Shown here one piece after another: positions 2,124-8,076 of a stretch of DNA of 12,159 nucleotides. The position numbers were made by a program, and so were the translations under genes. Origin of the DNA: Acidimicrobiales bacterium (lineage in GTDB: Bacteria > Actinomycetota > Acidimicrobiia > Acidimicrobiales > Poriferisodalaceae); the NCBI GenBank assembly GCA_030749275.1, contig JASMKJ010000252.1:1-12159 (forward strand), written 5' to 3'. Position 1 is the first letter of the stretch; the number at the start of each line of letters is the position of its first letter. The notes beneath the pieces were generated by a model that saw only the letters and a list, made by a program, of their open reading frames with translations, was not told where the DNA came from and searched no databases.

Positions 2124-3269
2124 ATGGCAGATAGCGACATTAAGGCAATGACGGCAAATCTTGATGCGGTCGAGTTCGATGAGACTGCGTTCACCGTGCC
2201 TGTTCCTTTAACGGAGGCGAAGGTGGCGATCGTCACTTCTGCGTCTCTGCACCATCCCGGTGATGAAGATTTCTCACCTATGGACACCGGCTACCGGGTT
2301 TTGAAGTCCGAGCATCGCGATTACGTAATGGGTCACTGGAGCCCAAACTTTGATGCGACAGGCTTCGCACTCGATATCAACACGGTGTTTCCCATTGACC
2401 GTCTCGACGAGTTAGCAGCGCAAGGAGTCATCGGTTCAGTAGCCGAAGAGCATCTTGCATACGCGGGTAATCAGTTCGAGTTATCTGCGATAAGGATGGA
2501 CAGCGGCCCAGCAGGAGCCAAGTTTCTCAAGGAACAGGACGTCGACGTCGTCTTGCTCACCCCTGTCTGACCGCTGTGTACGCGTACCGTGAGTACGCTC
2601 GCCCACATCTTCGAAGCGGAAGGCCTTGCCACCATTGCCCTCGGTTCCATCAAAACCCAGATAGAAGGCACCGCGCCTCCGCGAGGTCTTTGGTGTGACT
2701 TCCCGTTAGGAAGGCCTCTCGGAGTTCCGTCCGACCCAGAATTTCAACATCGGGTGCTCGCTAAAGCCTTCGAATTACTTGATAGCCCAGAACCAGTTTT
2801 TGCAGAATATGACGTCAGCATCGCTGATGACGAGACCGATGTTCTGGCATGTCCCATGCCCCCCCGACACGACCCAGATGCACACCCTGCGGTTGACGAG
2901 GCCAACGGCCTGCGCCCGGCATATGAACGCGCTATCACCCAATATGGCAACCGAGTCGGAGCTGGGAGAGCCGTTGAGGTCGACGACATAGCCGCCGCGA
3001 TAGAAGCCTTCGTGAGGATTGCCGAAGGAACTCCATGGAAAGAAGCTGGTGTACCTGGAATTCCATCACGAGTAAGCCAAGACGTTCGGGGATATTACGA
3101 AACAGCGGCTTTAGAGCTCTCAGATCATGCCCCCTCGGCATGGGCTGGGACACGTTGGTTCCTAGACCGGACCGAGGCTGGCAAAATAATCATGGCAGCG
3201 AGGCAGGCCATGGCCGACGCAGGTGAACCGAATCCCATTTGGTTCTATATGGCTCCGGGGGACCGCTAG
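2124..3269 (+). CDS. GrdB/PrdB-family selenoprotein (in-frame TGA read as selenocysteine)
   Basis: A 381-residue protein if the in-frame TGA at 2568-2570 (codon 149) is read as selenocysteine. The parts before and after the TGA are in the same frame and both match the glycine/sarcosine/betaine/D-proline reductase selenoprotein B family. The N-terminal half has LTEAKVAIVTSASLHHPGDE (29-48), FPIDRLDELAAQGVIGSVAE (91-110) and a DVDVVLLTPV strand (139-148). Then comes U149-P-L-C152-T-R, followed by LAHIFEAEGLATIAL (159-173). The family's catalytic selenocysteine (cysteine in non-Sec homologues) sits at the end of exactly this strand, followed by x-x-C. Other cysteines are C191 and C243. Clostridial GrdB is somewhat longer and PrdB shorter. 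No pyruvoyl partner (GrdE/PrdA), GrdA or GrdC is encoded here, so a true glycine or proline reductase is not implied; a C-Se, C-S or C-N redox role is possible. The Shine-Dalgarno before 2124 is weak; an alternative ATG is at 2148. The alternatives are a nonsense mutation or a base error in a Cys codon. Confidence 0.82.
2568..2570 (+). other. Recoded TGA (selenocysteine) codon
   Basis: The only in-frame stop in the GrdB-like frame between 2124 and 3269. It lies at codon 149, directly after the VVLLTPV strand and three codons before TGT (Cys152), producing the U-x-x-C redox motif expected at the active site of this family. The downstream half has no ATG close by and no Shine-Dalgarno in front of the GTG at 2589, so independent restart is unlikely. 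Whether the host carries selA, selB, selC and selD cannot be seen from this window. Confidence 0.8.
2576..2606 (+). promoter_or_regulatory. Putative bacterial SECIS element
   Basis: A perfect 6-bp stem pairs GCGTAC (2582-2587) with GTACGC (2593-2598) around the loop CGTGA (2588-2592). The loop begins 18 nt after the TGA, and a G is at its second position. Both fit the known loose bacterial SECIS pattern (a small apical loop about 16-37 nt after UGA, with a G among its first bases). GTG (2576-2578) can pair with CAC (2604-2606) below an internal loop. SelB would be the binding partner. Bacterial SECIS elements are poorly conserved, so this supports recoding but does not prove it alone. Confidence 0.6.
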
Positions 3270-3277
3270 TCAAGGTT

Positions 3278-4513
3278 GTGATCTTTTCGGTTCAGCCAGT
3301 CGAGCACAGATTCTTCGGTTGGCGCATCGTAGCGGCAGCGTTTACGGTCCTTTTTGTCGTCTATGGTGTCCAGTTCAGTTTTGGCACCTTTGTTGGAGAT
3401 GTCGTAGCTGACACCGGGTGGTCCGAAAATCGGCTCCAGTTGATCTTCGCTATCTACATCGGGCTTTATAGCGCGTTATCGGCGATAAGCGGATGGGTCA
3501 CTGACCGTATGGGGCCACGACCCGTCGTCGCTGTAGGCGCCGTCTTACTGACGGGCGGCTACCTGCTGTGGGCCACCGCTGACAGCATTTTTGTTGTTGC
3601 TATTGGGATGGCAGTCGTTGCCCCCCTTGGGATGAGCTGTTCTTGGGTGCCCTGCAATGCAACGGTTGTTCGGTGGTTTGTTGTCCGGCGAGGTTATGCG
3701 ACAGCTATCGCAACTGCAGGCGGTAGTCTCGCCAACATTTTGGTTCCACCGATTGCTGCCGTGCTTGTCTCAGCTTATGGATGGCGAATAGCGATTCTGG
3801 CAATGTCGCTAGCAGGTGGCGTTTGCATGTTGCTGAGCTCGATCGTCCTCGAGCGAGACCCCGAAGGAATAGGACAACAACCCGACGGGCGGCTCGCGCC
3901 CAGAGTAAATCCGGGTGAGGACCTCCTAGAAGGGATGACTCCCGCTGAAGCGTGGAGAAGTCGGACTTATTGGAAGATCTTCGGGATGTACGCACTCACT
4001 TTTGTTGCGGTGTTCGTACCATTTGTTCACGGCGTGCAATTTGCCCAGAGCTTGGGTGCCTCGCTTCAAACTGCTTCAACTGTTATTTCGGCAATAGGAA
4101 TTGGTGGGCTGCTTGGTCGCCTCATCATGGGACCGGTATCTGATCGGATCGGTAGAAAAAACGCGGTCATGTTGGCCTTGCTCTTAGAGACGGTGTCATT
4201 TCTGGGAATGGCCGCTACAAACACTTTGTGGTTGCTGTATCTGTCGGCAGTCACCTTCGGATTTGCCTACGGGGGTGGAGTTGTGGTCTTCCCACCGCTC
4301 GTTGCGGACCTGTTTGGTCGCGCCCACGCTGGATCAATTGTGGGCAGAATCTTCGCGACCGCTGGAGCAATGGCAGCGATAGGTCCATACACAGCACAAG
4401 TCTTACGCGATGCATTAGGCAACTACAGGTGGGCCTTCTTGCTCTCAGGCATAGCAAACGGACTCGCCCTAATACTCGCAACGCGTCTTCCTCGGCGTGC
4501 AGAACACTCTTAA
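3278..4513 (+). CDS. MFS transporter (monocarboxylate / oxalate:formate-like)
   Basis: A polytopic membrane protein of 411 aa with about twelve hydrophobic helices split into two halves by a charged loop around residues 192-230. The MFS motif-A loop occurs in both halves: G72-WVTDRMGPR-81 between helices 2 and 3, and G285-PVSDRIGRK-294 between helices 8 and 9. The helix-1 start (FFGWRIV) and the YWKIFGMYALTFVAVFVPFV segment (231-250) resemble monocarboxylate-porter and oxalate:formate-antiporter-like bacterial MFS proteins, so a small organic acid is a reasonable but unproven substrate. The frame is open upstream to a TTG at 3239, which would overlap the selenoprotein gene by 31 bases. The GTG at 3278, 8 bases after that gene's stop, is preferred because it begins just before the conserved N-terminus. 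No strong Shine-Dalgarno decides it. Probably the last gene of the operon. Confidence 0.9.
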   Translation: MIFSVQPVEHRFFGWRIVAAAFTVLFVVYGVQFSFGTFVGDVVADTGWSENRLQLIFAIYIGLYSALSAISGWVTDRMGPRPVVAVGAVLLTGGYLLWATADSIFVVAIGMAVVAPLGMSCSWVPCNATVVRWFVVRRGYATAIATAGGSLANILVPPIAAVLVSAYGWRIAILAMSLAGGVCMLLSSIVLERDPEGIGQQPDGRLAPRVNPGEDLLEGMTPAEAWRSRTYWKIFGMYALTFVAVFVPFVHGVQFAQSLGASLQTASTVISAIGIGGLLGRLIMGPVSDRIGRKNAVMLALLLETVSFLGMAATNTLWLLYLSAVTFGFAYGGGVVVFPPLVADLFGRAHAGSIVGRIFATAGAMAAIGPYTAQVLRDALGNYRWAFLLSGIANGLALILATRLPRRAEHS

Positions 4514-4590: not shown

Positions 4591-7500
4591 ATGGCGTTAG
4601 CTGACTTCAAACTGGAGGACCGATTTACACGTAGCGAGGGAGATGTCGCTATGTCAGGAGTCCAGGCTTTGCTTAGGGTTCTTTTAGATCAGTTGCGCGC
4701 CGATAAACGTGACGGATTCAACAACGCTGCAATGGTGTCGGGGTACCGAGGCTCGCCATTGGGGGGCATCGACTCGCTGATGCTGGGTAACGCTGAAGAA
4801 TTGGCTGACAACAACATCCAGTTCGTTCCTGGCCTCAATGAAGACCTTGGGGCAACAACTGTTTGGGGTTCCCAGCTAGCCAACCGTAACTTCGACGGCA
4901 AGTTCGATGGCGTGTTGGGCATGTGGTATGGCAAGGCTCCTGGAGTGGATCGATCGGGTGACGCTATTCGGCACGCAAACGTTTGCGGCGTCGATCCTAA
5001 AGGTGGCGTCCTACTGGTAGCGGGGGATGACCCTGCCTCTAAGTCGTCGACGCTGGCATCCGAATCTGAGTTCGCACTGCTCCATTTTCAGACCCCCATT
5101 CTTTACCCAGGAACGGTTCAAGAGGTAGCCGACTACGGTCGAATTGGCTACGAACTTTCTCGGTATAGCGGACTGTGGGTGGCGCTGAAGATTGTGACAA
5201 ATGTTGCGGACGGATATTCGACCATAAAAGTAGGCCCCGGCCGGGTGCAGATGGAACGTCCCGACTTTGAATGGGATGGCGTTCCTTGGCAACACACCCA
5301 ACAGGACGCGCTGTTTGGTCCGTTTGCGGTCCGTCAAGAACTCGAAATCCATGAAGGTCGAATGGAAGCCACTGACGCTTTCACCCGTCTCAATAGTCTC
5401 GACACCGTCAGCGGAGCTACCTCTGATGCTCGCATAGGCTTTGTAGCGGCGGGGAAGACCTACTACGACCTTCGAGAGGCACTCGATCGGATGGGTCTCG
5501 ACGAAGCTGAACTCAAGCGCCGAGGGGTGAGGCTCTACAAGCCAGCCGTCGTATGGCCACTCGAAGCAAACGGAGTTAGACAATTTGCTAGTGGCCTCGA
5601 AACGATTGTTGTTGTCGAAGAGAAGCGGGCTTTCATTGAGACGTTCATGCGCGAGATTCTGTACGGATCAACTGATGCCCCAACGATCCTCGGAAAACGT
5701 GATGCGGAGAACACATTTTGGTTCCCCGGTCACGGAGAGATGGACGCTGACCTCATTGCCCGAAAAATTCGCCCATTCCTCGTCAACCGTTTGGGAGAAG
5801 ACGCAGTAGGTCCAGCCGTGCGCGAACGGGTGACGATTCCGGTTGCTCTGGGTGAACCTGACACCAAGAAACAGTCGAACCGCACCCCTAATTTCTGTTC
5901 CGGCTGTCCACACAATCGTTCAACTTGGGTTCCTGAAGGGTCTGAAGCCGGTGGTGGCATTGGGTGTCATGGGATGGCATCAATGACACCAACACGCAAC
6001 GTTAAAGGGACTACCCAAATGGGAGGAGAAGGAGTTCAGTGGGTTGGAGCTGCGCCATTTGTCACCATGGAGCACAGATTCCAGAACATTGGCGATGGCA
6101 CCTTCCATCACTCCGGTTCCCTAGCGGTCCGACAGGCTGTTGCTGCCGGTACAAACGTCACATACAAGATCCTCTACAACGCGGCTGTTGCGATGACAGG
6201 CGGACAAGACGTTGATGGTGGAATGACGGTCCCCGAGTTGACTCGCTCACTTGAAGCTGAGGGAGTTACGAAGGTCATGGTATTGACCCACGACACCGAA
6301 AAATATGGGGAAGAGGCACACTTCGCTGACGGGACAGAAGTCTGGTACCGAGACCGGCTGGATGAAGCACAAAGGATCCTGCGCGATACACCAGGATGCA
6401 CAGTTCTGATTTATGACCAACCCTGCGCAGCCGAGCTGCGTCGTGACCGAAAACGAGGCAAGGTTGCCGAGCCGACTATGGCGGTATTCATCAACGAGGC
6501 CGTGTGTGAAGGATGCGGAGACTGTGGTGAGAAATCGAGTTGTCTCTCAGTGCAGCCGGTGGAGACGGAATTCGGTAGGAAAACAGCCATCCACCAATCC
6601 TCATGCAACAAGGATTTCACCTGCCTCGACGGAGATTGCCCAGCTTTCATAGAAGTTGTGGCTGCGGGCGTTGTGCCCGAAAAGTCGGCTCTCGCTGTTG
6701 CCGAAATCGGTGATGACCAATCGGAACCTGACCGCCTTGATGAAGGCAACGTCTTGATGATCGGAATCGGAGGCACCGGTGTTGTTACGGTCAATCAGCT
6801 GTTGGCCACAGCGGCTCTCCTAGATGGCAAAGAAGCCCACGGACTTGATCAAACCGGGCTTGCCCAAAAAGGCGGTCCAGTGGTATCCAACCTCAAGATT
6901 CGACGCCCTGATAGTGAACTTGAACTAGGAGAAGCCAACAAGATCGCGACCGGAGAAGCCGACGCCTACATCGTGTTCGACTTGTTGAGTGGGACAAACC
7001 CAGCCAACCTCGAGAAAGCGATGCCAGGACGCACTGTGGCGCTCGTATCGTCCAGCAAAGTACCTACAGGTGCAATGGTTCGAGACACCTCAGCTGAGTA
7101 TCCAGAGTGGTCCGCCCTACAAGCATCTATCGACAGCGCCACCGTCGCGGAGAAAAACGTCTACTACGACGCAGGAAACCTGTCGGACAATCTCTTTCGA
7201 TCGCACATGCCAGCGAACATCATTGTCCTTGGCTCTGCCTACCAGAGCGGCGTAGTGCCAATCAGTGCGGCAGCAATAGAACGCGCCATCGAACTGAACG
7301 GTGTTGCTGTAGAAATGAACACCCAAGCGTTCAGAATCGGACGACAGATAGTTATTGAACCCGAGTTCATTGACAAGCTGGGAATAGAACGCGTCGGGAA
7401 AGTCAATCGCAAGAACAATGTTTCGGAAGCGTTCGAGGCTCTAATCCAATCAGTGCCCGACCCGTCCGAAGAACTTGAACGGCTTCTAAGAATCCGGGTC

Positions 7501-8076
7501 CCGGACCTCGTTGACTACCAGAACACCAAATATGCGAAGACATACGTAGAAAGAGTCAGCGCAGTCAGAGCAGTAGAAGCAACTGTGGGTCAAGACACGC
7601 GCTTGTCGGAGACTTACGCTCGTTATCTCTACAAACTAATGGCGTACAAGGACGAGTACGAAGTCGCCCGACTTCACAGGTCCAAAGCATTCCAACAAGC
7701 AGTGCGTGATCAGTTCGGAGACCGAACCAAAGTCACGTACAAGTTGCATCCGCCTTCCATGAGGCGACTTGGCCTTGACCAGAAAATTGGGCTAAGTCGC
7801 GCAGGCGATCTGGCGTTTGGGATATTACGCAGGATGAAGTTCTTGCGCGGCACCCCTCTAGATATCTTCGGCAATACAACCCACCGCAAGATGGAACGTG
7901 GACTGGTTGAGGAATATCAAACAATGATCGATTCAGTGATGGTGGGTCTTGGCCCTGATAGCTACGACAAAGCGCTCCGCGTAGCTGAACTTCCCGATAT
8001 CGTCCGCGGCTACGAAGGCATCAAGGAAGCAAACGTCGAGAGATTCAGACAGGCTGCTAACGAAATATTGAGTTAA
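4591..8076 (+). CDS. Fused indolepyruvate ferredoxin oxidoreductase
   Basis: A 1161-aa single-chain 2-oxoacid:ferredoxin oxidoreductase, the long form in which the alpha (iorA) and gamma (iorB) parts are joined. It would oxidatively decarboxylate aryl or branched pyruvates to the acyl-CoA in the cytoplasm, using ThDP and Fe-S clusters. Visible parts in order: an N-terminal pyrimidine-binding domain with SGYRGSPLGG (50-59); FCSGCPHN (435-442) opening the ThDP pyrophosphate domain; the ThDP/Mg motif GDG (501-503) with Asn530; a cysteine-rich Fe-S region with C639, C642, C645, C651, C672, C678 and C683; a gamma domain starting GIGGTGV (725-731); and the conserved C-terminal extension of long-form enzymes (about 1040-1150). 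Length is normal for fused forms. AGAAGGGG (4578-4585) is a good Shine-Dalgarno. The 77-base gap before it suggests a separate or weakly coupled unit. The exact 2-oxoacid is not determined. Confidence 0.93.
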   Translation: MALADFKLEDRFTRSEGDVAMSGVQALLRVLLDQLRADKRDGFNNAAMVSGYRGSPLGGIDSLMLGNAEELADNNIQFVPGLNEDLGATTVWGSQLANRNFDGKFDGVLGMWYGKAPGVDRSGDAIRHANVCGVDPKGGVLLVAGDDPASKSSTLASESEFALLHFQTPILYPGTVQEVADYGRIGYELSRYSGLWVALKIVTNVADGYSTIKVGPGRVQMERPDFEWDGVPWQHTQQDALFGPFAVRQELEIHEGRMEATDAFTRLNSLDTVSGATSDARIGFVAAGKTYYDLREALDRMGLDEAELKRRGVRLYKPAVVWPLEANGVRQFASGLETIVVVEEKRAFIETFMREILYGSTDAPTILGKRDAENTFWFPGHGEMDADLIARKIRPFLVNRLGEDAVGPAVRERVTIPVALGEPDTKKQSNRTPNFCSGCPHNRSTWVPEGSEAGGGIGCHGMASMTPTRNVKGTTQMGGEGVQWVGAAPFVTMEHRFQNIGDGTFHHSGSLAVRQAVAAGTNVTYKILYNAAVAMTGGQDVDGGMTVPELTRSLEAEGVTKVMVLTHDTEKYGEEAHFADGTEVWYRDRLDEAQRILRDTPGCTVLIYDQPCAAELRRDRKRGKVAEPTMAVFINEAVCEGCGDCGEKSSCLSVQPVETEFGRKTAIHQSSCNKDFTCLDGDCPAFIEVVAAGVVPEKSALAVAEIGDDQSEPDRLDEGNVLMIGIGGTGVVTVNQLLATAALLDGKEAHGLDQTGLAQKGGPVVSNLKIRRPDSELELGEANKIATGEADAYIVFDLLSGTNPANLEKAMPGRTVALVSSSKVPTGAMVRDTSAEYPEWSALQASIDSATVAEKNVYYDAGNLSDNLFRSHMPANIIVLGSAYQSGVVPISAAAIERAIELNGVAVEMNTQAFRIGRQIVIEPEFIDKLGIERVGKVNRKNNVSEAFEALIQSVPDPSEELERLLRIRVPDLVDYQNTKYAKTYVERVSAVRAVEATVGQDTRLSETYARYLYKLMAYKDEYEVARLHRSKAFQQAVRDQFGDRTKVTYKLHPPSMRRLGLDQKIGLSRAGDLAFGILRRMKFLRGTPLDIFGNTTHRKMERGLVEEYQTMIDSVMVGLGPDSYDKALRVAELPDIVRGYEGIKEANVERFRQAANEILS

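Follow-up and report, generated by a model that had tools for sequence, protein, structure and literature searches.

The 12,159-nucleotide stretch analysed here (the window; contig JASMKJ010000252.1 of assembly GCA_030749275.1, from a member of the Acidimicrobiales, Poriferisodalaceae) contains at positions 2124–3269 what the evidence strongly supports as a single gene for a single selenoprotein, in which an in-frame TGA would be read as selenocysteine (Sec). The sequence comparisons support a distant relationship to PrdB, the Sec subunit of D-proline reductase, and to GrdB, protein B of glycine/sarcosine/betaine reductase. Taken as one statement, and leaving the substrate aside, it is very probable that this is one selenoprotein that acts without a pyruvoyl partner subunit. 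The features concerned are:

2124–3269, + strand: PrdB/GrdB-like selenoprotein gene, 381 residues through the TGA, ATG start and TAG stop
2568–2570, + strand: TGA codon 149, presumably read as Sec
2577–2579, + strand: Cys152 of the UxxC motif, presumably the resolving cysteine (Cys in 38/38 sequences)
2578–2602, + strand: putative bacterial selenocysteine insertion sequence (SECIS) hairpin, with outer pairs 2578–2579/2601–2602, inner stem 2582–2587/2593–2598 and loop CGUGA at 2588–2592

Two open reading frames (ORFs), at 2124–2570 (+ strand, 148 amino acids) and 2589–3269 (+ strand, 226 amino acids from a GTG), lie in a shared frame whose sole interruption is the TGA at 2568–2570, and decoding that TGA as an amino acid yields the 381-residue product with the motif U149PLC152. 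At this base composition, with bases taken as independent, a stop-free run of 232 codons would arise by chance with a probability of about 5e-5. An earlier note on this DNA had described two ORFs in one frame with a single TGA between them, as is indeed the case, and had named decay of the downstream half in relatives as a finding that would speak against one gene. No such decay was seen among the 31 loci compared with the window gene: third-position differences dominate both upstream (2641/3727) and downstream (4125/6044) of the TGA, and the downstream half is under constraint like the upstream half.

The GTDB species genomes were scanned with the product, giving 37 loci of 60–93% identity, two of them partial (L051 and L055, cut by contig ends). 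By taxon label 34 are Actinomycetota, most of them Acidimicrobiia ('Ca. Microthrix' among them), and three are Gammaproteobacteria. All 37 contain exactly one in-frame stop, always TGA and always in the same aligned column. A survey of 198 genomes of the window's order found the family in 64, with 138 matches, of which 129 carry exactly one TGA, two a TGA and further stops, and seven no stop. Five of these seven have TGC or TGT at the column, and the remaining two, G026:C60 (query residues 1–98) and G189:C1:16536 (181–379), do not reach it. The TGA also occupies the column in 30/30 long-form loci (L058–L087, L058 being the window gene), and three full-length database homologues (P0067, P0087 and P0104) carry Cys there. 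Exchange of Sec and Cys in a conserved setting is a classical sign of a selenoprotein, and the Cys or Sec column that the earlier note expected at codon 149 is present. Across the phylum, 63 of 396 genomes gave a family match.

The three contigs labelled as Gammaproteobacteria (L049, L052 and L054) bear the long form at 61–70% identity and may reflect horizontal transfer or a binning error. In L053 (3194–4864) a second PrdB-like gene starts right after the first, near the contig end, in an apparent tandem duplication. A short-form subgroup (L128, L129, L135 and L138; 4/42) reads VPA-U-PLD-HQT, with Sec retained and the second Cys replaced by Asp; L114 is of the same type, with extra stops.

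Directly 3′ of the TGA, the predicted SECIS hairpin is conserved with compensatory changes. In a covariation set of 38 sequences (36 distinct), compared with 500 shuffles, 98.6% of pair cells were standard, and double changes occurred at two pairs (UA to CG in 4, AU to GC in 1). The observed value was reached by 0/500 shuffles for cells paired, 3/500 for pairs with a double change, and 0/500 each for cells with a double change and for the covariation score. Codons 155–157 are base-invariant across 32 genes, and the minimum synonymous diversity among 11-codon stretches falls at codons 153–163 (0.23 vs a gene mean of 0.57). The inner five pairs all form, in the same register, in 30/30 long forms (the window gene included) and 31/42 short-form paralogs, while alternative registers are available to at most 2/30 long and 13/42 short forms. 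At pair 16/28, counted as offsets from the TGA, long forms carry G-C or G-U and 40/42 short forms A-U; at pair 17/27 long forms carry U-A or C-G and 34/42 short forms G-C.

The host genome (2.69 Mb in 630 contigs, 90.25% complete) contains selA (344.6 bits) and selB (282.8 bits), adjacent on contig C275, with a tRNA-Sec (anticodon UCA, 66 bits) on C513 and selD (356.8 bits) on C499; the earlier note would have abandoned its reading had such genes been absent. Within the order, SelA is present in 60 of the 64 family-holding genomes and in 57 of the 134 others (Fisher p 4e-13, with three weak matches to SelA left out of the count). Recoding as Sec, which that note had put forward from one sequence, is supported by the conserved TGA, the Cys homologues, the SECIS hairpin and the sel genes together.

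The selD ORF (C499:2892–3830; L019, L117) has an in-frame TGA at ORF codon 16 (HGAG-U-ACK), and selenophosphate synthetase, its product, appears to be a selenoprotein itself. A second PrdB-like gene of the same genome, on C343 (L116:2773–3678; L002:1420–2325), is a short form with TGA at the motif VPL-U-PVC and a SECIS in the same register, and ordinary ORF calling splits it in two. Its neighbouring ORFs, as named from their sequence, resemble MaoC, CoA-transferase and hydrolase genes.

TIGR04483 (PrdB) aligns with residues 25–219, across the TGA, at 108.3 bits (against 79.6 bits with only the first half), below its cut-off of 300 bits, and TIGR01918 (GrdB) reached 31.9 bits, below its cut-off of 65.45 bits. 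PF07355 (GRDB) exceeded its 22-bit gathering cut-off with both the whole product (23.2 bits) and the first half (27.1 bits), in a partial match of profile positions 207–345 of 347 to residues 17–146, ending just ahead of the TGA. By the curated models the product is neither PrdB nor GrdB, and the earlier note's assignment to the GrdB/PrdB family holds as a distant relationship, not as membership.

In PrdB and GrdB enzymes the pyruvoyl subunit (PrdA or GrdE) binds the amino-acid substrate. The processing of GrdE and PrdA has reportedly been described in a paper cited within the Cloacibacillus fluoroacetate-operon study. PF09338, which we take to represent this partner, had no match in the host genome, and of the 64 genomes in the order with the family 63 were likewise without a match, the sole co-occurrence (G030) being on a different contig; it was found in 15/396 genomes of the phylum and 14/198 of the order. 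By contrast, a GrdB in another Actinomycetota genome (L120, G469:C11) lies at most 1 kb from a PF09338 gene and scores 269.3 bits with TIGR01918. The description of the protein as "lone" in the earlier note is supported, as is its mention of oxygenase, dehydrogenase and transporter neighbours. These are:

3–362, + strand: PhyH-like Fe(II)/2-oxoglutarate dioxygenase, truncated at its 5′ end where the contig begins (PF05721, 24 bits; upstream in relatives too)
397–1173, + strand: short-chain dehydrogenase (SDR; PF00106, 133.6 bits)
1170–2108, + strand: EamA-type transporter (PF00892, 137.4 bits)
3278–4513, + strand: MFS transporter of monocarboxylate/oxalate-formate type (NF049980, 221.8 bits, cut-off 320; TIGR04259, 143.9 bits, cut-off 335)
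4591–8076: single-chain indolepyruvate ferredoxin oxidoreductase, 1161 amino acids (NF009589, 1399.6 bits)

The gene row of the window is nearly contiguous, and for the MFS gene a start at GTG 3278 is more probable than one at TTG 3239. The order PhyH-SDR-PrdB-like-MFS is kept in 23 of the 37 loci, 16 of which have EamA between the SDR and the selenoprotein gene, and an indolepyruvate ferredoxin oxidoreductase match lies downstream in 24/37. Three loci cut by a contig end (L028, L034 and L051) are consistent with the row as far as their sequence reaches. L041 has the MFS and ferredoxin oxidoreductase genes downstream, with no SDR match within 573 bases upstream of the gene. Among ten deviating loci, L043 has a HalD-like 2-oxoglutarate oxygenase gene (61.8 bits) at most 2 kb away and L054 a divergently adjoining PhyH gene. 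A halogenase-like 2-oxoglutarate oxygenase is encoded near the PrdB-like gene at both L043 (3408–4184) and L039 (1292–2068), the HalD scan having covered L043 only, and at L043 an amidohydrolase gene lies alongside.

An AlphaFold2 model built on a 21-row alignment (mean pLDDT 90.3, pTM 0.91) predicts an alpha/beta Rossmann-like domain at about residues 27–234 followed by a C-terminal helical extension. In the model U149 lies between strand 142–146 and helix 152–165, and the C-terminal part is helical. Comparisons with the PDB gave common Rossmann-type similarity only.

Several observations weigh against a lone, recoded enzyme that works within this gene row. For further pair types, one of five measures of covariation, 500/500 shuffles reached the observed value, and the folding energy computed for the SECIS region as a single sequence is no lower than that of shuffles (z -0.05). 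Of the short-form Sec paralogs, 11/42 break at least one inner pair, eight of them one pair. None of the five Cys forms makes all five inner pairs, a weak contrast since four of them lose just one pair, like 8/42 Sec short forms. Four family-holding genomes had no SelA match; three of them are 78–84% complete, and the remaining one, at 97% completeness, has the Cys form. PrdA or GrdE could lie in a gap of the host assembly, given its 630 contigs and incompleteness; the relatives are without PF09338 too. Other neighbours are found in 10/37 loci and L041 is without an SDR match, so the gene row cannot define what the family as a whole does.

For the proposed mechanism, the SECIS hairpin 3′ of UGA-149 would recruit SelB-GTP-Sec-tRNA, and the ribosome would insert Sec and carry on to the TAG at 3269; for these two steps the sequence makes a strong case. 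U149 would then attack or reduce the substrate, C152 would resolve the selenenyl-sulfide, and a cellular thiol system would regenerate the enzyme, which may supply one step of a pathway in which a small organic (carboxylic) compound is taken up and degraded aerobically by the products of the PhyH oxygenase-SDR-EamA-MFS row. A role in aerobic catabolism is likely because of the neighbouring genes. In its general form, a lone selenol-dependent reductase in the aerobic uptake and breakdown of a small organic acid, the function is proposed tentatively and may well prove to be another. It is possible, if doubtful, that the lone PrdB-like selenoproteins make up a separate class of reductases in aerobic marine actinobacteria. 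Enzymes of such a class would act in series with a dehydrogenase and an Fe/2-oxoglutarate oxygenase and would need no pyruvoyl cofactor, the selenol itself directly cleaving a bond between carbon and a heteroatom in a small organic acid; different paralogs, among them the UxxD forms, in which the second Cys is missing, would act on different substrates. Were this true, the "proline reductase" label given to sea-water selenoproteins since 2005 would be wrong.

Instead of a catabolic enzyme, the product could be a general thiol/selenol disulfide reductase of redox defence. The UxxC motif is as in thioredoxin-like redox proteins, and GST-family genes adjoin three of the 30 surveyed loci (L052, L094 and L095); we regard this as unlikely.

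Proline reductase is known from anaerobes and needs a pyruvoyl partner. It is quite improbable that the gene encodes a genuine Stickland enzyme, a D-proline reductase or one of glycine type, with a partner subunit that went undetected in the draft genome. TIGR04483 is the best NCBIfam match, PF07355 is above its cut-off, and relatives are labelled "D-proline reductase PrdB" or "glycine reductase" in the sources. Both curated models nevertheless fall short, TIGR04483 far below its threshold, whereas the actinobacterial GrdB that is linked to PF09338 scores high with TIGR01918, and the partner is missing from nearly all genomes of the order that hold the family. The missing partner, the gene row, the host, the SECIS covariation and the Sec/Cys distribution argue against the given function, and the label "proline/glycine reductase" looks wrong.

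The databases present the gene as two proteins, with translation stopping at the UGA and restarting at GTG 2589, and mostly hold the 226-residue GTG-start half alone: among the matches listed (120 of 1202), 117 are at most 231 amino acids long. Residue 151, however, is Leu in 38/38 sequences through six different codons, residue 150 is Pro in 37/38, and P-L-C-T-R-T between the TGA and GTG 2589 is conserved despite synonymous codon variation, which argues that these codons are coding. Single-chain Cys homologues exist, and the GTG falls within the apical loop of the SECIS, which explains why it is conserved. Two proteins are therefore highly improbable. The earlier note had also denied the second half a credible start or Shine-Dalgarno sequence; the two-gene reading is indeed disfavoured, but the Shine-Dalgarno argument is weak and was not used, because the start at 2124 is also without a clear one.

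A pseudogene or a sequencing error at 2568–2570 might be suspected in a single draft assembly, but with TGA in all 37 independent contigs and third-position differences dominating both halves its probability is close to nil. Reassignment of TGA to Trp or Gly in the host, which would likewise read the codon through, is hardly credible, since TGA is the ordinary stop of the PhyH, SDR, EamA, CBS, selA and selB genes and the homologues carry Cys, neither Trp nor Gly.

One selenoprotein without a pyruvoyl partner, the reading preferred here, bears on how such genes are stored and named. In public databases the gene appears largely as a "hypothetical protein" of 226 residues that lacks the N-terminal part. 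A large marine and actinobacterial branch that is Sec-encoded, without partner, and often set in a conserved oxygenase-dehydrogenase-transporter row would lose its assumed function, and that row offers a concrete gene set for functional testing.

The product resembles PrdB in its UxxC motif and in the homologous domain at residues 25–219, and differs from it in scoring below the cut-off, in having about 160 extra residues beyond the aligned region and in that PrdA was not found in the genome. With GrdB it shares the PF07355 match with the Sec motif directly after it, and it differs in its TIGR01918 score, in covering only the end of the PF07355 profile and in that GrdE was not found in the genome.

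The literature comparison draws on parts of the cited papers. The selenoprotein is of a known kind, since UxxC "proline reductase PrdB" selenoproteins from sea water have been published since 2005, when 42 genes were given (PMC1088965); 235 Sec and 110 Cys forms, with pfam07355, followed in 2008 (PMC2398784), and in 2021 PrdB made up 6.4% of selenoprotein genes in sea water (PMC9402790). According to these sections the class is not rare and is among the abundant selenoproteins of sea-water metagenomes. We infer that this marine set probably includes the present family, with which it shares the UxxC motif, Sec, the marine setting and pfam07355 (PMC2398784). In the sections used, the two earlier reports (PMC1088965, PMC2398784) report counts for the family and call it proline reductase; new here are the host lineage, the gene row, the SECIS covariation, the Sec/Cys distribution and the missing partner, PrdA. 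A 2026 review discusses Stickland-type PrdB and GrdB, and neither Acidimicrobiia nor Actinobacteria was found in its main text. The fluoroacetate operon of Cloacibacillus (farB/farE; PMC10838667) likewise combines an oxalate/formate-family MFS transporter with a GrdB-like protein for which cleavage of a carbon-fluorine bond has been proposed. Cloacibacillus is an anaerobe and, on the evidence of that part of the paper, its operon retains a radical SAM protein and a partner resembling GrdE; as a parallel for the gene row of the window the operon is suggestive.
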